A stretch of 35,987 nucleotides of DNA from contig NZ_FNAR01000025.1 of assembly GCF_900101985.1 (NCBI RefSeq), positions 1-35,987 on the forward strand, given 5' to 3'. The notes below the pieces were generated by a model. That model saw nothing but the letters and a program-made list of their open reading frames with translations. It made no database searches and had not been told where the DNA came from. Origin of the DNA: Bhargavaea beijingensis. GTDB taxonomy: Bacteria > Bacillota > Bacilli > Bacillales_A > Planococcaceae. Numbering within the stretch: the stretch's first letter is position 1; each line of letters starts with the position of its first letter. Below are positions 6,173 to 19,470 of this stretch, one piece after another. The translations under genes and the position numbers were made by a program.

Positions 6173-6961
6173 TTATTCCGCCGCCACCGCGATGTTTTTT
6201 GCGGAGCTGATCAGCTCTTTAATCAATTCCCTGTCTTCGCGGTGCAGGGCGTCGACGATGGCGCTGCCGACGATGACGCCGTCAGCCGTGCGGCCGAAAT
6301 CCCGGACCTGGTCCGGCGCCGAGATGCCGAAGCCGGCGAGAACGGGGATCGTTGCCATCTCTTTGAGCTGCTCCAGTCGGCTGTCAGTCGTGCCGCCGAA
6401 GCTGTCGCGGACGCCGGTGATGCCGTCGACAGTGACTGCGTAGATGAACCCTTCCGCAGCTTCCGCGATTTTCCGGATGCGTTCTTCCGGAGCGGACAGC
6501 GGGATCAGTCGGATCAGGTCGATGCCGTTCATCCGGAGGCAATCCTCGAGCGGCTCGCTTTCCTCGAACGGGACATCCGGCACGATGACGCCGGCAATAC
6601 CGGCCTCCTGGCAGTCGTTTGCAAATCCCGCCATGCCGTAGCTGAGGACTGGATTCAGGTAAGTCATGAAGATGATCGGGATGTGTACGTCGTCACGAAT
6701 CACTTTTACTTCTTCAATGACCGCCTTGAGCGTCGTGCCCGCCGCAAGTGCGCGGAGGCCCGCTTCCTGGATGACCGGTCCGTCGGCGGCCGGGTCGGAA
6801 AACGGGATGCCGAGTTCCACTGCCGTCGCGCCCGCTTCCTGCAAAAACAGGAGATCCTCCTTGAGGCGCCCGAGCCCCCCGTCGCCCGCCATGATGTACG
6901 GGACAAATGCGCAGCCTCCGGATTCGCGTGCCTCAAGGATCGCTTTTGTAATCTCAGACAT
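6173..6961 (-). CDS. trpA: Tryptophan synthase alpha chain
   Basis: This 262-residue TIM-barrel enzyme cleaves indole-3-glycerol phosphate to indole and glyceraldehyde 3-phosphate, and indole passes to TrpB. The catalytic Glu is in [16 protein letters not shown] (about 47-62), which also holds the catalytic Asp. The phosphate-binding end [10 protein letters not shown] and the downstream GSAIV match the family. Length is normal. The gene overlaps trpB by 8 bp and is last in the operon, followed by a terminator. Confidence 0.97.
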
Positions 6962-8180
6962 GTCCGTTTCCTCCCTTCAGCGCATCGCGCACGGTCATGA
7001 CATCCTTGTCGCCGCGCCCGGACAGGCAGATGACGACGATTTCGTCAGAAGACATGCCGGATGCAAGTTCCACCGCGTAATGCACGGCGTGTGAGCTCTC
7101 GAGCGCGGGCAGGATGCCTTCCTTACGGCTGAGCATCTTCAGCGCCTCCAGGGCCTGTTCGTCCGTGACCGACGTGTAGGTCACACGCCCCGTATCGCGG
7201 AAGTGCGAATGCTCAGGGCCGGCACCCGGATAGTCGAGACCAGCCGAGATGGAATGGGCCTCATTGATCTGGCCCGCCTCATCCTGAAGGAGGTACATGA
7301 AGGCGCCGTGCAGCGCGCCCGGTCGGCCGCCTGTGAGGGCTGCCGCATGTTTGCCTGTTTCAATGCCGCTCCCCGCAGCCTCGACGCCGTAGAGGGCGAC
7401 CTCCGTGTCGTCTACGAACGGGTGGAACATGCCGATCGAGTTGCTGCCGCCGCCGACGCAGGCGACGACCGCATCCGGCAGGCGCCCTTCCTTCTCCAGG
7501 ATCTGGTGCCGGGTCTCGACGCCGATCACCCGCTGGAAGTCCCTGACGATTTCCGGGAACGGGTGCGGCCCGAGTGCAGAACCGATGACATAGTGTGTGT
7601 CTGAGACATTCGCCACCCAGTAACGGAGTGCCTCATTGACCGCGTCCTTCAGCGTGCCGGAACCCTGGTCGACGGAGACGACGGATGCGCCCAGCAGTTC
7701 CATCCGGAAGACGTTCAGCTCCTGTCGCCGGATGTCCTCTTTGCCCATGAACACGAGGCACTCCATGTCGAGCAGCGCGCACGCGGTCGCGGTGGCCACG
7801 CCGTGCTGTCCCGCTCCGGTCTCCGCGATGATCTTCGTTTTGCCCATCCGCTTGGCAAGAAGCGCCTGACCGATCGCATTATTGATCTTGTGCGCGCCGG
7901 TATGGTTCAGGTCTTCACGCTTTAGGTAGACTTTTGCACCGCCCGCGGCTTCCGTCAGACGTTCTGCGAAGTACAGCGGGTTTTCACGCCCCACGTAGTC
8001 CTTCAGGTAGTGATCCAGCTTTTCCACAAACTTCGGATCTTCCTTCGCATCCCGGTATGCCGTCTCGAGTTCAAGAAGCGCCGGCATGAGCGTTTCGGGG
8101 ACGAAGCGGCCCCCGTATTCCCCAAAGCGCCCGGCTTTATCGGGTGCTTGGTATATGTTCTTTTCTTTTGTATTCACCAT
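6954..8180 (-). CDS. trpB: Tryptophan synthase beta chain
   Basis: This 408-residue pyridoxal-phosphate enzyme joins indole and L-serine to give tryptophan. The PLP lysine lies in [14 protein letters not shown], and the phosphate-cradle [10 protein letters not shown] is present. The PLP ring contact region CLSGRGDKD is near the C-terminus. Length and motifs are those of the TrpB1 type that pairs with TrpA. It overlaps trpA by 8 bp and shares one base with the trpF stop codon, so it is tightly coupled. Confidence 0.97.
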
Positions 8181-8797
8181 CAGGCCTCTCCCCTTTCCTT
8201 CACGGCACGGATAAATCCTCGGATCAGCTCCGGGTCTTTCCGTTTTTCCCGTTCCACGCCGCTCGATACGTCGAGCGCAAACGGCATTGTCTGCCTGACC
8301 GCCTCCGCGGCATTGCCGGCGTTGAGCCCGCCGGCGATGATTGTCCGTTCCCGCGGAATGCCGGCGTCGGCAAGAAGCGACCAGTCAAACACATTTCCGC
8401 TGCCGCCCCGGAAGTCGGTGCCCGGCGCGTCGAACAGATAGTAATCCACGTCAAATCGGGCCGCACGGCGGACGTCCTCCGCCGTCCGGACGGAAAATGC
8501 TTTGATCGACGGCAGGCCGATTTCCCGGATCTGTTCCGGTGTCTCGTCGCCATGATACTGCACATAATCAAGCGGGACATTCCGGAAGACGGTGCGGAGC
8601 TCCTCCGAATCCGGATTCACGAAGACGCCAACTTTCTTGACGTTCTCCGGTACCCGGGCCGCGAGTTCTGCCGCCCATTTCATATCGATCCGCCTCCGGC
8701 TCGGAGCGAAGACGAACCCGATGGCATCCGCCCCCGCGTCAACGGCGGCTCTGACATGCTCGGCTTCCATGAGCCCACAGATTTTCACTTTTGTCAT
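8180..8797 (-). CDS. trpF: Phosphoribosylanthranilate isomerase
   Basis: This 205-residue TIM-barrel enzyme performs the Amadori rearrangement of N-(5-phosphoribosyl)anthranilate to CdRP. The N-terminal [11 protein letters not shown] carries the catalytic Cys, and the catalytic Asp lies in DYYLFDAPG. The phosphate-binding end ([10 protein letters not shown] and ALDVSSGVE) is intact. It overlaps trpC by 4 nt. Here TrpF is a separate protein, not fused to TrpC as in enterobacteria. Confidence 0.96.
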
Positions 8798-9582
8798 GGC
8801 CGGAGCACCCCATCCGCTTCGCGATAGGTGCGGATGGCCGCACCCGGGTCGCCGCTCCGCATGAGCGACTCACCGACGAGGATGGCATCCGCGCCGTTTT
8901 CGCGGACGCGTGCGGCGTCCTCCGCCGACATGATCCCGCTTTCGGAGACAAGATACCGTCCTGGCTTTTTGCCGGCACGCGCTGTAAGCCGCGCCGTGTT
9001 GCCGAGGTCGACGCTGAATGTCTTCAGGTCGCGGTTGTTGATGCCGATAAATGCCGGGTCCAGTTCAAGCGCGCGGTCCATTTCTTCCTCGTCATGCACT
9101 TCGACGAGGACATCGAGCCCCGCCGACTTGGCATAGGCGTGCAGTTCACGGAGCCGCTCCTGAGGCAGCGCCGCCACGATCAGGAGGACCACGGAAGCAC
9201 CCGCCTGGAGCGCCCGGTCGATCTGCAGCTCATCGATGACAAAGTCCTTGCAGAGGATCGGAATCCGGACGGCTTCCGCCACCGCGGCCAGATCTTGATA
9301 GGAACCTTTGAAAAAGGCCTCTTCGGTCAGGACGGAGATGCAGGAAGCACCCGCCTGTTCATAGCGCAGTGCCTGCTCGGCCGGGTCCGCGTCCGCGTTG
9401 ATGATGCCTTTTGACGGGGAGGCCCGCTTGACTTCGGCGATGACCCCGAGGCCGTCCTTGGCGTCAAATGAATCCGACAAACGCGGCCTACTGTACCGGA
9501 TCGCCGGCGTGGCCGGGATTTCTTCCCTCAGGGAGGGGAGTCGTTTCCGTTTTTCTTCAAGAATATCGTCCAAGATCGTCAT
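8794..9582 (-). CDS. trpC: Indole-3-glycerol phosphate synthase
   Basis: This 262-residue TIM-barrel enzyme closes the indole ring by decarboxylating CdRP. Family motifs are seen in order: VIAEVKRASPSKG (catalytic Lys), PILCKDFVID (catalytic Lys), VEVHDEEEMDRAL, IGINNRDLKTF and VSESGI near the end. Length is normal. It overlaps trpF and trpD by 4 nt each. Confidence 0.97.
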   Translation of the reverse strand: MTILDDILEEKRKRLPSLREEIPATPAIRYSRPRLSDSFDAKDGLGVIAEVKRASPSKGIINADADPAEQALRYEQAGASCISVLTEEAFFKGSYQDLAAVAEAVRIPILCKDFVIDELQIDRALQAGASVVLLIVAALPQERLRELHAYAKSAGLDVLVEVHDEEEMDRALELDPAFIGINNRDLKTFSVDLGNTARLTARAGKKPGRYLVSESGIMSAEDAARVRENGADAILVGESLMRSGDPGAAIRTYREADGVLRP

Positions 9583-10607
9583 GGCGTGACCGCCTCCTTT
9601 GCCTGCTGGTGGAACCGGATGACGGATTCCAGCTTTTCCATCGCTTTTCCGGACAGAATGATGTCTTTTGCAAGTTCAACGCCTTCCTTGGCTGTTTCCG
9701 CGCGTCCTGCGGCAAACAGGCCGATACCCGCATTGAATGCGACGGCATCGAATTTCGGGCCGCGGGCGCCGCCGAGGACCGAGCGGAGGATTTCCGCGTT
9801 TTCCCGGCCGTCCCCTCCCTTAAGGGCGGACAATGGTGCGGACTCGAGTCCCACGTCTTCAGCTTCGAGCGTGAACGGGATCAGGTCGCCGTTGTCCAGC
9901 AGCACGAAGTCATTCGGTCCCGCAAGAGAGGCCTCATCCATGCCGCCGGCTCCGCAGACGACGATCGCGCGCTTGCGTCCTTGCATCCGGAGAACCGACG
10001 CATAGTTCATCGTGAAGTCTTTCCGGCTGATGCCGGTGAACTGCGATGCCAGCGGGACCGGGTTCGTCAGCGGACCCGTCAGGTTGAAGATCGTGCGCCG
10101 CCCGAGCCGTGCCCGGATCTGTCCGATGCGCTTCATTTTCGGATGGAGACGAGGCGCAAAGAGAAAAGCGATGCCTTCTTCGCGCAGCTGCCTGACCGCC
10201 TCTTCCATGTCCTGTTCAAGCCCGAGGCCGAGCGCTTCCAGCACATCGGAGCTGCCCGACCGGCTGGAGATTTTCCGGTTGCCGTGCTTTGCGACCGGAA
10301 CGCCTGCTGCGGCCAGGACGAATGCCGACGTCGTGCTGATGTTGAAGCTGTCCGAACCGTCGCCTCCCGTCCCGCAGTTGTCGGTGTAAGGCGCTTCCGG
10401 GAGTTCCGGGACAATTGCCATGCCGCGTGTCACCTCGGCAAGCGCCGCCACCTCGTAGGCTGTCTCTCCCTTGTCGGCAAGTGCCGCGAGGAATTCACCG
10501 ACCTCTTCTTCTTTTGTGCGCTCGTCAAACATGAACAGCGCGGCCTCCGTCATTTCCTCGTAGCTCAGATCGTTGCCGTTCCGTACTTTCTGTGTGAACT
10601 CTCTCAT
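9579..10607 (-). CDS. trpD: Anthranilate phosphoribosyltransferase
   Basis: This 342-residue enzyme transfers phosphoribose from PRPP to anthranilate. The PRPP-binding signature GTGGDGSDSFNIST is at about residues 80-93. KHGNRKISSRSGSSDVLEALG follows, and FLFAPRLHPKMKRIG covers the substrate site. A ribosome-binding site (GGAG, 5 nt from ATG) supports the start at 10607. There are 32 bp between trpG and this gene, the largest gap in the operon. As expected for a Gram-positive operon, it is not fused to a glutamine amidotransferase. Confidence 0.97.
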   Translation of the reverse strand: MREFTQKVRNGNDLSYEEMTEAALFMFDERTKEEEVGEFLAALADKGETAYEVAALAEVTRGMAIVPELPEAPYTDNCGTGGDGSDSFNISTTSAFVLAAAGVPVAKHGNRKISSRSGSSDVLEALGLGLEQDMEEAVRQLREEGIAFLFAPRLHPKMKRIGQIRARLGRRTIFNLTGPLTNPVPLASQFTGISRKDFTMNYASVLRMQGRKRAIVVCGAGGMDEASLAGPNDFVLLDNGDLIPFTLEAEDVGLESAPLSALKGGDGRENAEILRSVLGGARGPKFDAVAFNAGIGLFAAGRAETAKEGVELAKDIILSGKAMEKLESVIRFHQQAKEAVTP

Positions 10608-10639: not shown

Positions 10640-11260
10640 TTAAAGTCCGGGAATCCGCTCGGGTCCCGATGCATTCTGTTTATTGAAGGCCTTGGCTTCT
10701 TCCAGGAAAGCGGCAAGCAGCCGCTCCCCCTTTTCCGTTCCGACCGACTCCGGATGGAACATGAGCCCGTAGACCGGATGCCGGTCATGCCGCACAGCCA
10801 TGACTGTGTTGTCGTCCATCGAATAGGCGTCCGCGTGCAGCACTTCCGGCAGCGCCCCTTCGTCAAGTGCCGCCGAGTGGCAGCACATCACGCGGAGCGG
10901 CTGGGGAAGATAGGCGAACAGTCCGCCTCGCTTGTGCCGAACCATGGCCGGCTTGCCGTGCCGGATTTGGGTACGCCGGCTTTCCTCTTCTCCATAGGCG
11001 GCCGCGATGATCAGCTGGCCGAGGGAAACGCCGAGTATCGGGACATCCGCCCCGAACTCCCGGACGATCCCGACCGATTCCGGCCAGTTTTCCGGACTCC
11101 CCGGTCCTGATGACAGAATGATCGCCGACGGGCCGAAGCGCTCGACCTTCGACAGTGTCGCAGCCTTGGCGTCCAGGATGCCGATGTCCTCACCGAGCAC
11201 GGCGAGGGCGCCGGACAGGTTCTGGGTGAAAGAGTCTTCATGATCGATCAGCAAAATCAT
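10640..11260 (-). CDS. trpG: TrpG-like amidotransferase subunit lacking catalytic Cys
   Basis: This 206-residue protein sits where TrpG, the glutaminase subunit of anthranilate synthase, belongs. The class I amidotransferase fold is recognisable: MILLIDHEDSFTQNL at the start, LSSGPGSPE (oxyanion-loop region) at 49-57, and FHPES with the His169/Glu171 pair near the end. The nucleophile elbow, normally GVCLGHQ, reads GVSLGQL. Ser79 (codon TCC, 11026-11024) replaces the catalytic Cys, Gln82 replaces His, and Leu83 replaces the glutamine-binding Gln. The usual YHSL is altered to CCHSA and the Gln of VQFHPE is Met. I infer that glutamine hydrolysis is lost or very weak. It overlaps trpE by 4 nt and remains full length, so it is not a decaying pseudogene by frame. 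Confidence 0.85.
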   Translation of the reverse strand: MILLIDHEDSFTQNLSGALAVLGEDIGILDAKAATLSKVERFGPSAIILSSGPGSPENWPESVGIVREFGADVPILGVSLGQLIIAAAYGEEESRRTQIRHGKPAMVRHKRGGLFAYLPQPLRVMCCHSAALDEGALPEVLHADAYSMDDNTVMAVRHDRHPVYGLMFHPESVGTEKGERLLAAFLEEAKAFNKQNASGPERIPGL

Positions 11261-12627
11261 TTGACCACCTCCGTGAGCGAACGGGCTTTGTTTTCCGTCT
11301 CCTTGTATTCGAGCTCAGGCCGGGAATCGTGGACGACCCCGGCACCTGCCCGTACCGAAGCGATGCCGTCCTGGATAAAGAAGGTCCGGATGGCGAGCGC
11401 CATGTCCATGTTGCCGTTAAAACCGATGTAGCCGACAGATCCCCCATACAGGCCTCGCAGCGACGGCTCCAACCGGTCGATCAGCGCCATCGCCCTGCCC
11501 TTCGGTGCGCCGGTCACCGTACCGGCCGGCAGGCATGCCCGGATGGCATCGAACGCATCCGCCCCCTCCTTCAGCTGCCCTTCCACTTCGGAAACGAGAT
11601 GCATGACGTGCTCATAGCGGACGACTTCCTGGTAGGCGGTCACCTTGACCGTCCCCGGCACAGCGGTTTTCGCGATGTCATTGCGCCCGAGGTCGACAAG
11701 CATGTCGTGTTCGGCCAATTCTTTCGGGTCTGCGAGCAGTTCCGTCTCGAGCGCCCGGTCTTCTTGCCGGTCTTTTCCCCGGCGGCGGGTGCCGGCGATC
11801 GGGTTCATCGAAAGGATGCCGTCCTTGGCCTTCACGACACTTTCCGGGGAAGTCCCGACGATGACCGTCTCTTCCAGGTCGATGATGTACATGTACGGCG
11901 ACGGGTTGCGCCGGCGGAGCCGGCGGTACAGGCCAAACGGGCTGCCGGAAAACGGTGCGCTCAGTTCCCGTGACAGGACAACCTGGTACAGCTCGCCTGC
12001 CTCGATGGCATCAATCCCCTGCCTTACGGCTTCTTCAAAAGCTTCTTTTTCGGTATCCGATGTGAACTCGCCGAGCGTGAAGGATATTGTTTCCGGCTCA
12101 CCGCCGGAGAGTATCTGGGACTCGATCCGGTCAAGCTCATCATCTGCCGGTCCGTCCCCGAGATCGGTGCGGACAATCGAGACCGTGCCCTCCAGATGGT
12201 CGAAGACGATGACCGTACTGTAGACGTTAAGAAGCACATCAGGCCCTGATCCGCCGTTTACTTTATGTTCTCCCGCACCGTATCCGATCGCCCCGACGGC
12301 GCCTCCCGCAAACGGGAAGGCTTCCGGAGACGCGACCCTCGGCAGCAGCCGCTGGAGCAGCCCGAGTGGCTCGCCCTCGTGACGGAACACCCTGCCCGTC
12401 CTGCAGTTCCATTCTTCAAGGACACGGCCTTCTGCGCGGTACGTCTTCACCGGATCCTGCCCGATATAGGAATAGCGCCCCGGCCCGTCATGCGCGCCCG
12501 AGCTTTCCAGCATGAATTTCCTCTGCCCTTTCAGCCTTCCGAATACGGCGACCGGCGTAAGCGCATCCGCCGCGATCCTCCTGACAGCCACCCTTCCGGT
12601 TCCTTTTTGTTCTCTGACTGTGCTCAT
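11257..12627 (-). CDS. trpE: Anthranilate synthase component I
   Basis: This 456-residue chorismate-utilising enzyme converts chorismate and ammonia to anthranilate. The feedback-site motif near the N-terminus reads FMLESS (LLES in classical TrpE), so tryptophan inhibition is likely. The catalytic half is intact: PIAGTRRRGKDRQED, AEHDMLVDLGRND, PAGTVTGAPKGRAM and RAGAGVVHDS. It is about 50 residues shorter than many TrpE proteins, mainly at the N-terminus. RBS: AGGAGCTGAGCAGAG before ATG. It is the first gene after the T-box leader. Confidence 0.96.
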   Translation of the reverse strand: MSTVREQKGTGRVAVRRIAADALTPVAVFGRLKGQRKFMLESSGAHDGPGRYSYIGQDPVKTYRAEGRVLEEWNCRTGRVFRHEGEPLGLLQRLLPRVASPEAFPFAGGAVGAIGYGAGEHKVNGGSGPDVLLNVYSTVIVFDHLEGTVSIVRTDLGDGPADDELDRIESQILSGGEPETISFTLGEFTSDTEKEAFEEAVRQGIDAIEAGELYQVVLSRELSAPFSGSPFGLYRRLRRRNPSPYMYIIDLEETVIVGTSPESVVKAKDGILSMNPIAGTRRRGKDRQEDRALETELLADPKELAEHDMLVDLGRNDIAKTAVPGTVKVTAYQEVVRYEHVMHLVSEVEGQLKEGADAFDAIRACLPAGTVTGAPKGRAMALIDRLEPSLRGLYGGSVGYIGFNGNMDMALAIRTFFIQDGIASVRAGAGVVHDSRPELEYKETENKARSLTEVVK

Positions 12628-12649: not shown

Positions 12650-13005
12650 GGGAAAATAAAAAGTCCCCCGCAACAGGCACAGCAGTCCTGTTGCGGAGGA
12701 CGGAAAAAATCCGCGTTGCCACCTCCGGTTGGGGCAGATCGCCCCCTCTCGGCCATGCCGCAGACTGCGGCATGCTCCCTTAACGCGGGAAGGTCGTCCG
12801 CCGGGCTGTGGCCGCGGCGGCTCTCGTAAGTCCATTCGCATGCGGGGCGCTCCGGCTTCCACCTGCCGCCGGCTCTCTTGGCCGCCTGGCGCATGCTACT
12901 CCTCTTACTCTGCAATTTCTCTGCTATGCTATGCTGTGCTCTGCTTTTTGATCCAAGGGCGATGCCGCTCCCGGCACCTTCTGCCCCAGCCGGACTAAAA
13001 AGTTA
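12650..13005 (-). ncRNA. T-box riboswitch (tRNA-Trp), trp leader
   Basis: The minus-strand leader has all the hallmarks of a T-box. The conserved T-box AGGTGGCAACGCGG is at 12724-12711. The specifier loop GAATGGAC (12837-12830) places UGG, the Trp codon, at 12834-12832. The Stem I distal motif GGTGGAAGCC lies at about 12864-12855. The antiterminator bulge UGGC (12721-12718) would pair with a GCCA 3' end, matching the G discriminator base of bacterial tRNA-Trp. A terminator hairpin follows. Uncharged tRNA-Trp would stabilise the antiterminator and turn on trpEGDCFBA. The exact 5' end is inferred from the promoter. Confidence 0.96.
12655..12701 (-). terminator. T-box terminator/attenuator hairpin
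   Basis: On the minus strand a 15-bp stem (12687-12701 with 12663-12677, with G-U or near pairing) is followed by UUUUUAUUUU. Its 5' arm (CCTCCG) can instead pair with CGGAGG next to the T-box to form the antiterminator. Confidence 0.93.
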
Positions 13006-18035: not shown

Positions 18036-19247
18036 TCACCACTGATTATTTTTATATTTCCTGTAATAGTTGATCTGGCGCGCCAGCATATAGAACGGGC
18101 GCTTGCGGTTCTTGTCGCCTTTGTAGAACAGCGGGTTGCCCCACTTTCCTGCGCGGAGCAGCCGGCGCACTTCCTGGTTGATCTCCGGATTGTCGACGAA
18201 AGTCTTCAGGACAATTTTCGGTACGACGGAAAATAGGAACTCGGTATTCAGGTAGGTCAGTTCTTTTTCCTTCCCGCGGATCAGGTCATCGACCAGGTAG
18301 CGGGCCATGTTGTGGCCGGTGGCCGTTGTGTAATAGCTGGAACGGCCTTGGCGGATGTTCACTTCGAACACTTTGAACTTGCCGTCGCGGACATCGTATT
18401 TCAGGTCGAAGTTGGCGAAGCCCCGGTAGCCGACTGCCTCGAGGAATCGCTGCAGCTTCTGCATGAGTTCTTTATCGTAGCGGGTGATGAGCGCCGTGTA
18501 GTTCCCGATCGCGGTGACGGTGTGCTCCTGAAGCACGACCTGCGCAAGCGTTCCGAGCTCGGCCTTTCCTTTCGAGTTCACGTAAAACACGGAGTCCCAC
18601 ATGAACGTGTCATCACCGGGAATGAAATCCTGGATGATCAGGTCTTCCTTGTAGCCGGAAGCGGTCACCTTGTCGATCACGGCCAGAAGCTCTTCGGGTG
18701 TTTCCACGCGGTAAACCTTTTGCTGGCCGTCGAACTTGTTCTTGTAATACTCGACGCCGTTACTCGGCTTGACGATGGCCGGATACCGGATGTCTGTGTT
18801 GAACTCACCCTGTTCACGGCAGCTATAGAAATATGTATCCGGCGTATCCAGGCCGTGCTCGTCGCAAAGCCGGTAGAAGTTTTTCTTCACGAGCAGGTTG
18901 TTCATCAAGTCTTCGGATATGTAGTTGAACACATACCACTGACGCAGCTTCTCCTGGTTTTCGATGATCAGGCGGACATATAAGTCATTCGTTCCGACAA
19001 GCAGCAGCTGCCGCCCGTCTTTTTTGTACTTTTCGGCCACTCGCCCGAGAATCGAAGTGAACGCATTGCTGTCCCCAAGGGCGGAATCGTATTCGATCAC
19101 CTGGGGGATGGTGCTCATGTTGGTGAAGCCCATTGGCTCCTTCCCGACCAGGACCGGGTGGATGCCGTACTCCTCATGAAATGAGATCGACATATTGTAC
19201 GCGTTTATATCGGTGCCCACGATGACGGGCAGGAAGTTGTGTAGCAT
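18036..19247 (-). CDS. ATP-grasp carboxylate-amine ligase
   Basis: This 403-residue ATP-grasp protein resembles the uncharacterised carboxylate-amine ligases related to D-aspartate ligase. It should activate a carboxylate as acyl-phosphate and join it to an amine. Visible parts are YPAIVKPSNGVEYYK (ATP-binding strand and Lys, about 155-169), DLIIQDFIPGDD (hinge), and the Mg-binding end KYDVRDGKFKVFEVNIRQGR, where Glu and Asn of EVN are the expected metal ligands. The C-terminus is very basic (about 365-403). I chose ATG at 19247, preceded by GGAGG with 5 nt spacing, over a TTG 16 codons upstream. The substrate is unknown. Confidence 0.8.
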   Translation of the reverse strand: MLHNFLPVIVGTDINAYNMSISFHEEYGIHPVLVGKEPMGFTNMSTIPQVIEYDSALGDSNAFTSILGRVAEKYKKDGRQLLLVGTNDLYVRLIIENQEKLRQWYVFNYISEDLMNNLLVKKNFYRLCDEHGLDTPDTYFYSCREQGEFNTDIRYPAIVKPSNGVEYYKNKFDGQQKVYRVETPEELLAVIDKVTASGYKEDLIIQDFIPGDDTFMWDSVFYVNSKGKAELGTLAQVVLQEHTVTAIGNYTALITRYDKELMQKLQRFLEAVGYRGFANFDLKYDVRDGKFKVFEVNIRQGRSSYYTTATGHNMARYLVDDLIRGKEKELTYLNTEFLFSVVPKIVLKTFVDNPEINQEVRRLLRAGKWGNPLFYKGDKNRKRPFYMLARQINYYRKYKNNQW

Positions 19248-19470
19248 GATGTCCTCCAAATTTATGTATTGCGGCCCTTTCAGGAAGATATTCAAGCCGC
19301 TATATATGTGGGAATGCAGCCGGAAACCTGCCGCATTCCATAGTAAAGATAACCGGGGGGACAGGGCAATATGCCATCCTTCCCAATCGTCCTGTTCCCA
19401 ATTATAAAATCATACCAAAAACTGCGGACGGATGTCCCTTTCCAGCCTGTGCATGCTATCAAACAACAAT
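19248..19470 (-). promoter_or_regulatory. Leader/promoter region of ATP-grasp gene
   Basis: A perfect TATAAT lies on the minus strand at 19406-19401, implying a leader of roughly 145 nt. The leader contains an inverted repeat, GGAATGCGGC (19339-19330) with GCTGCATTCC (19320-19311), 9 of 10 pairs and a 9-nt loop. No U tract follows, so it is not a simple terminator. No known riboswitch class is evident to me. Confidence 0.45.

Follow-up and report, generated by a model that had tools for sequence, protein, structure and literature searches.

Bacillus subtilis possesses an amphibolic PabA, i.e. a glutaminase subunit of the folate pathway that also pairs with TrpE and thereby supplies ammonia. 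For the aminodeoxychorismate synthase (ADCS) of Escherichia coli, consisting of PabA and PabB, the accessible part of PMC7617670 describes a salt bridge between aR30 and bE119, which is needed for activation of the glutaminase and not for assembly. Reversing the charge of either bridge partner left only residual glutaminase activity and affected assembly little, while alanine at bD308 or bR311 abolished assembly. According to the same text, Tyr127 of PabA touches bD308, and its exchange in Y127A weakened assembly without glutamine; the Tyr127 side chain also contacts the catalytic water near the substrate carbon, and zinc was bound in E. coli PabA through C79, H128, and H168. TrpE without TrpG can form anthranilate from chorismate and ammonia at high ammonium, as stated in the available portion of PMC10464499. 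In human CPS1, Ser294 replaces the cysteine of the glutaminase-like domain and ammonia is used, and factors besides this serine can also block the use of glutamine (PMC4655335, available text).

In this study, we analyzed the trpG gene of Bhargavaea beijingensis in a window, meaning the whole stretch of 35,987 nucleotides of contig NZ_FNAR01000025.1, and compared it with related loci. The nearest named relatives of the window were Bhargavaea massiliensis, B. cecembensis, B. ginsengi, and Bhargavaea sp. CC-171006, and the genus set comprised eight Bhargavaea genomes including the source genome. The operon order trpE-G-D-C-F-B-A, described before in a sequence-only reading, was found intact with trpE and trpG as part of it, and consists of the following genes:

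11257..12627, minus strand: trpE, synthase subunit, with a 4-base overlap with the trpG start (Pfam, TIGR00564)
10640..11260, minus strand: trpG, glutaminase-like anthranilate synthase subunit with dismantled active site (Pfam, TIGR00566)
9579..10607, minus strand: trpD (Pfam and TIGR scans)
8794..9582, minus strand: trpC (named by operon order; same order in relatives)
8180..8797, minus strand: trpF (named by operon order; same order in relatives)
6954..8180, minus strand: trpB (named by operon order; same order in relatives)
6173..6961, minus strand: trpA (named by operon order; same order in relatives)

The complete reading frame stated for trpG was also confirmed, i.e. 206 codons are open on the minus strand at 10640-11260, and translation of the plus strand of the same stretch contains stops. 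By sequence, the protein is a member of the TrpG/PabA family, since its scores exceeded the cut-offs for both the GATase domain (PF00117; 126.1 bits, cut-off 22.8) and TIGR00566 (128.6 bits, curated cut-off 121.05). The fold is kept in an AlphaFold model (pLDDT 90.4, pTM 0.89), for which PabA from E. coli ADCS was the best PDB match, with a TM-score of 0.86 by query length. Residues were mapped on the E. coli PabA and PabB sequences (NC_000913), with residue roles taken from the accessible part of PMC7617670. The active site of the window TrpG is composed as follows:

11171..11173, minus strand: Asp30, in place of the conserved Arg (aR30 of E. coli PabA, in salt bridge with bE119; residue mapping)
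11108..11110, minus strand: Ser51, in place of the conserved Pro in the PGPG loop (residue mapping and window read)
11024..11026, minus strand: Ser79 (TCC), at the position of the nucleophile Cys (Ser in 8/8 Bhargavaea, Cys in 22/22 other family loci)
11012..11014, minus strand: Leu83, in place of the conserved Gln (residue mapping and window read)
10880..10885, minus strand: Cys126-Cys127, in place of the conserved Arg-Tyr and followed by the retained His128 (TGCTGC in 8/8 Bhargavaea)
10754..10756, minus strand: His169, the kept His of the triad (residue mapping and window read)
10748..10750, minus strand: Glu171, the kept Glu of the triad (residue mapping and window read)

Reading of the window thus gave the elbow motif GVSLGQL with Ser79 encoded by TCC at 11026-11024, as had been reported from the letters, and Ser79, His169, and Glu171 stand where an active glutaminase carries its Cys-His-Glu triad. 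The loss of the conserved Gln of the glutamine site, likewise proposed before, is common to all eight Bhargavaea genomes (Q83L). The exchange of His82 for Gln had been counted as a further loss, which did not hold up, as Gln is present at this position in 10 of 22 canonical TrpGs of the family and in PabA of the source genome. Gln83, which we take to bind glutamine in TrpG/PabA proteins, Tyr127, and the aR30-bE119 bridge, all related to binding or activation, are replaced throughout the genus by Leu83, Cys127, and Asp30 or Ala30, together with a missing Glu in TrpE.

To the family comparison, 261 genomes contributed, of which 191 gave a match, and loci from 30 of these were read, i.e. the eight from Bhargavaea and 22 from two other genera. 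The motifs G[VI]SLGQL and MCCHS were found in TrpG of 8/8 Bhargavaea, and the replacements C79S, P51S, Q83L, R126C, and Y127C as well as the loss of R30 (Asp in seven, Ala in one) are shared by all of them. In addition, L130 (PabA map, E. coli numbering) is absent, and G52, L80, H128, H168, E170, and S171 (PabA numbering) are retained. The 22 other TrpGs of the family were all canonical with Cys and RYHS, and so were three extra family loci from other genera. TrpG and PabA of E. coli and PabA of the source genome are canonical at sites 79, 83, 51, 126, and 127. Ten GATase matches were obtained in the source genome, eight of which were checked with an elbow motif search; the motif was found in five, namely TrpG and four others that all carry Cys, and three were not caught by it. 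The alignment of trpG from relatives, which had been proposed as a check, hence showed the Ser form genus-wide in Bhargavaea and Cys in each of the 22 loci from other family members.

The TrpGs of the seven Bhargavaea relatives are 64-98% identical to the window TrpG, two of them at 64-69%. Ser79 is encoded by TCC in two, TCG in five, and TCT in one of the eight genomes, and because three different Ser codons occur within the genus, the residue was kept while its codon changed. For a sequencing or assembly error we found nothing in favor, and the same residues in eight genomes with differing Ser codons leave it a negligible probability, in agreement with the earlier argument against such an error. 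The change in TrpG is real and conserved, and it is wider than first described. As the eight genomes descend from one ancestor, it counts as one evolutionary event. When 398 genomes from the class were searched with a profile (E <= 1e-58), seven gave a match, i.e. two Bhargavaea, three family members already counted, and two others with canonical residues, so that no donor of a Ser-type TrpG was seen and horizontal acquisition was left without a candidate in this sample. Of 80 loci from a viral collection, 79 were readable in frame and 22 distinct ones served for alignment depth only; they were excluded from the count of Ser forms because the search pattern included CLG. Among the matches listed for the openly licensed literature, there was no account of a Ser-type TrpG or of tryptophan synthesis in Bhargavaea.

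Glutaminase activity had been judged unlikely from the elbow, and C79S plus the further changes in the pocket support this prediction. Nevertheless, TrpG might still hydrolyse glutamine via Ser79 or via a relocated nucleophile, Cys127 or Cys126. The sequence Cys126-Cys127-His128-Ser129 is invariant in 8/8 genomes with His169 and Glu171 kept, and a Cys at 127 would sit near the reaction, since the residue at this position of E. coli PabA contacts the catalytic water through its side chain (PMC7617670, accessible part). On the other hand, Q83L, P51S, the loss of R30, and the loss of the TrpE Glu take away elements connected with the binding of glutamine and with activation, and for human CPS1 the replacement of Cys by Ser is given as the explanation for the lost use of glutamine (PMC4655335, available text). 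We therefore regard residual glutamine hydrolysis as unlikely.

The partner subunit was also found to be altered, at the following site:

12271..12276, minus strand: trpE residues 118-119, site of the missing segment equivalent to bE119 (alignment gap of 6-7 residues)

The description of trpE as normal consequently has to be revised. Its chorismate-binding domain is complete (PF00425, 309.5 bits) and motifs such as PIAGT, HVMH, and GAPK are present, but a conserved segment is missing and the TIGR00564 score is 470.7 with a cut-off of 517.7. This cut-off was missed by all three Bhargavaea TrpEs scanned (B. ginsengi 474.2, genome G006 464.2), and six other TrpEs of the family scored 547-589, all above it. 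The Glu equivalent to bE119 and its neighbors are missing from TrpE in 8/8 Bhargavaea. Arg30 of TrpG and this Glu of TrpE are present in 22/22 family pairs, the set covered by the Glu mapping with the three extra loci left out, and in TrpE/TrpG of E. coli. The placement of the gap can be moved by a few residues, and in six of the eight TrpEs the GEHK after it contains a Glu, a position without Glu in G006 and G003; an Asp at TrpG position 30 would not pair with a Glu. PabBC of the source genome carries Asp instead of Glu in the bE119 column. The residues for assembly, i.e. bD308 and bR311 in TrpE and aS171 in TrpG (E. coli ADCS numbering), are kept in 8/8 genomes, and G207 and Y210 of TrpE are kept as well. 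A point against kept assembly is the loss of Y127, which supports assembly in E. coli. Overall, the residue pattern in Bhargavaea is that expected if assembly were retained and glutaminase activation abandoned. Since the stems of the genus are long for both proteins (TrpE 1.76 and TrpG 1.38 changes per column up to the midpoint root), some of the paired changes may reflect general divergence.

A separate PabA had been suggested as a possible ammonia source, and a search of the genome for an intact pabA had been proposed. A canonical PabA (GxCLGQQ) is indeed encoded in the source genome at contig C8:17804-18358, beside a fused pabBC and away from the trp genes. Within the genus, pabA, and likewise pabBC, was found in only five of the eight genomes (G000, the source genome, and G001, G002, G004, G007); neither pabA nor pabBC was found in G003, B. 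ginsengi (G005), and G006. The assembly of G003, probably faulty in the trpD-trpC and trpA regions, where it contains runs of N and duplicated stretches, was given little weight. In B. ginsengi CGMCC 1.6763, the gene upstream of pabA and the one beyond pabBC are separated by about 320 bp of a single contig, and G002 holds both pab genes at this place:

11844-12161, B. ginsengi locus: site of the missing pabA-pabBC between conserved flanks (flank comparison with G002)

No other glutaminase of the TrpG/PabA type was found by our searches in B. ginsengi and G006. The genomes lacking pab keep TrpE and one further enzyme, presumably isochorismate-synthase-like, whose gene appears as two matches in G003. 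Thus, pairing of the folate-pathway PabA with TrpE as in B. subtilis, for which the canonical PabA in 5/8 genomes including the source genome speaks, fails as a general mechanism: no PabA was found beside the Ser-type TrpG in 3/8 genomes, with clean absence in B. ginsengi, TrpE of 8/8 lacks the Glu by which E. coli PabB activates its glutaminase, and in the source genome pabA sits with pabBC apart from the trp genes. We consider this route quite improbable.

Dihydropteroate synthase is present in all eight genomes. In B. ginsengi, its presence together with the missing pabA-pabBC constitutes a p-aminobenzoate gap in folate synthesis, and because dihydropteroate synthase is kept in 8/8, the species lacking pab presumably take up p-aminobenzoate.

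It was also considered that trpG is heading for loss, with an impaired anthranilate synthase and cells living on external tryptophan. The catalytic residue is gone, and in the three deeper pairs the dN/dS of trpG exceeds the trpE or trpD value by a factor of about 1.4-2. For the nine pairs calculated out of 28 possible ones, with a simple counting method, dN/dS of trpG was 0.045-0.134 in six close and 0.220-0.296 in three deeper Bhargavaea pairs, that of trpE 0.054-0.082 and 0.149-0.153, and that of trpD 0.039-0.113 and 0.151-0.171, respectively. Hence trpG is slightly freer than its neighbors, yet clearly under purifying selection. Within the genus, 17 of 20 pocket positions are invariant vs 96 of the 170 remaining positions among the first 190 residues (Fisher p 0.015), and family-invariant sites were lost at 7 of 18 positions in the pocket vs 10 of 53 elsewhere (Fisher p 0.11, not significant), with both pocket lists picked after seeing the data. 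A pseudogene was rejected on the basis of zero stops in 8/8 genomes, purifying selection, and invariance of the pocket. The operon is complete in the window and in seven of the eight loci compared, and in the eighth, the faulty assembly G003, trpA was matched only in part; in B. ginsengi and G006 all seven trp genes have full length.

Upstream of trpE, a regulatory leader was detected:

12693..12921, minus strand: T-box leader of the trp operon (77.1 bits, E 5e-17; Rfam gathering score 93)
12896..12941, minus strand: (G/U)AG repeats (8 triplets), a candidate TRAP site that overlaps the T-box on its 5′ side

The triplet following GAA in the T-box is UGG (Trp) at 12834-12832. A T-box before trpE was also present in B. 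ginsengi (91.1 bits) and G006 (86.8 bits); all three scores are below the Rfam gathering score of 93, with E-values of 5e-17 or lower. UGG after GAA recurs in the G006 leader and is visible for B. ginsengi in its named locus, and a similar leader is visible in five named loci. The 100 nt at 12970-12871 contain 11 (G/U)AG triplets vs a shuffle mean of 4.6, and 8 of 2000 shuffles were as high, with simple shuffles and a stretch selected after inspection. At 12693-12941 (minus strand), the trp leader of the window seems to join a Trp T-box with overlapping TRAP-type (G/U)AG repeats, and the TRAP protein is encoded in 8/8 Bhargavaea genomes. For B. subtilis, PMC4027176 and PMC11255114 (accessible parts) describe the action of TRAP on the trp leader and a T-box by which anti-TRAP is raised. 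The combination of a complete operon and leaders of this kind speaks for a functional tryptophan pathway without proving it. The complete operons, the T-box in the three leaders scanned, TRAP in all genomes, a trpG dN/dS of still 0.05-0.30, and a pocket more invariant than the rest of the protein together make an operon on its way to losing trpG very improbable. Elsewhere in the window, a frame of 419 codons at 18036-19295 (minus strand) matched ATP-grasp families only weakly, with 20.5 bits for PF15632 and 19.4 bits for PF02786, neither of which reached its cut-off.

The reading we probably have to prefer is a genus-wide anthranilate synthase that uses ammonia, with TrpG as a structural pseudo-glutaminase; it is the best one because TrpE alone can use ammonia at high ammonium and CPS1 provides a precedent. 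The trp operon of the genus would encode an anthranilate synthase no longer using glutamine, in which TrpE converts chorismate and free ammonia to anthranilate. TrpG would stay bound as a non-hydrolysing structural subunit, possibly to stabilise TrpE or to give the entrance for ammonia its shape. Both the use of free ammonia by TrpE and a structural role for TrpG had been put forward at the outset, and both appear plausible from the residues compared here. The ammonia supply of the cell would have to be sufficient. For the ammonium transporter AmtB, no match was obtained in 5/8 Bhargavaea including the source genome (matched in 3/8), and only 2/8, the source genome not among them, have a long glutamate synthase frame (about 1500 codons). 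As AmtB and the long glutamate synthase are both absent from the source genome, a life with plentiful ammonia, e.g. on amino acids, might be assumed. The absence of AmtB fits such an ammonia-rich life, yet does not ensure the supply.

Simple loss does not explain, as judged from the alignments, why Cys126-Cys127-His128 with His169 and Glu171 is invariant in 8/8 genomes. His and Glu of the triad, the oxyanion residues Gly52 and Leu80, and also His128 persist in a pocket that shows no decay, so that a ligand may still be bound there. The Cys pair adjoins His128, the other His is kept, and there is the precedent of zinc in PabA, from which a metal or redox site can be drawn; that the former glutaminase pocket became such a site, or a new nucleophile site, gating or sensing ammonia for TrpE is a rather doubtful but conceivable proposal.

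Compared with PabA and TrpG of E. coli, the Bhargavaea TrpG is alike in fold, length, place in the operon, the His and Glu of the triad, the Gly and Leu of the oxyanion site, and the Ser for assembly, and differs in its Ser nucleophile position and the replacement of Gln83, Pro51, Arg30, Arg126, and Tyr127 in 8/8 genomes. TrpE shares the chorismate-binding domain with anthranilate synthase component I (TIGR00564) and differs by the missing segment equivalent to bE119. The likeness to the amphibolic PabA/TrpG of Bacillus subtilis consists in the pabA of 5/8 genomes, the difference in that none was found in 3/8. As in human CPS1 (PMC4655335, available text), a class I glutaminase-like domain is kept with Ser for Cys, and use of ammonia is proposed for Bhargavaea. 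CPS1 is one large protein of the urea cycle, whereas the dead unit of Bhargavaea forms a subunit of its own and serves bacterial tryptophan synthesis, and beyond CPS1 the partner TrpE lost the activating contact, too.

If this reading is true, Bhargavaea would have an anthranilate synthase independent of glutamine that is ancestral and common to the whole genus. The two halves of the contact that activates the glutaminase appear to have disappeared jointly, and the assembly contact was kept. This would be natural support for separate interface residues for assembly and for glutaminase activation, as described for E. coli aminodeoxychorismate synthase in the accessible part of PMC7617670. The genomes lacking PabA would allow testing of ammonia use without a second glutaminase of the TrpG/PabA type, and the change known from CPS1 would extend to bacterial tryptophan synthesis.
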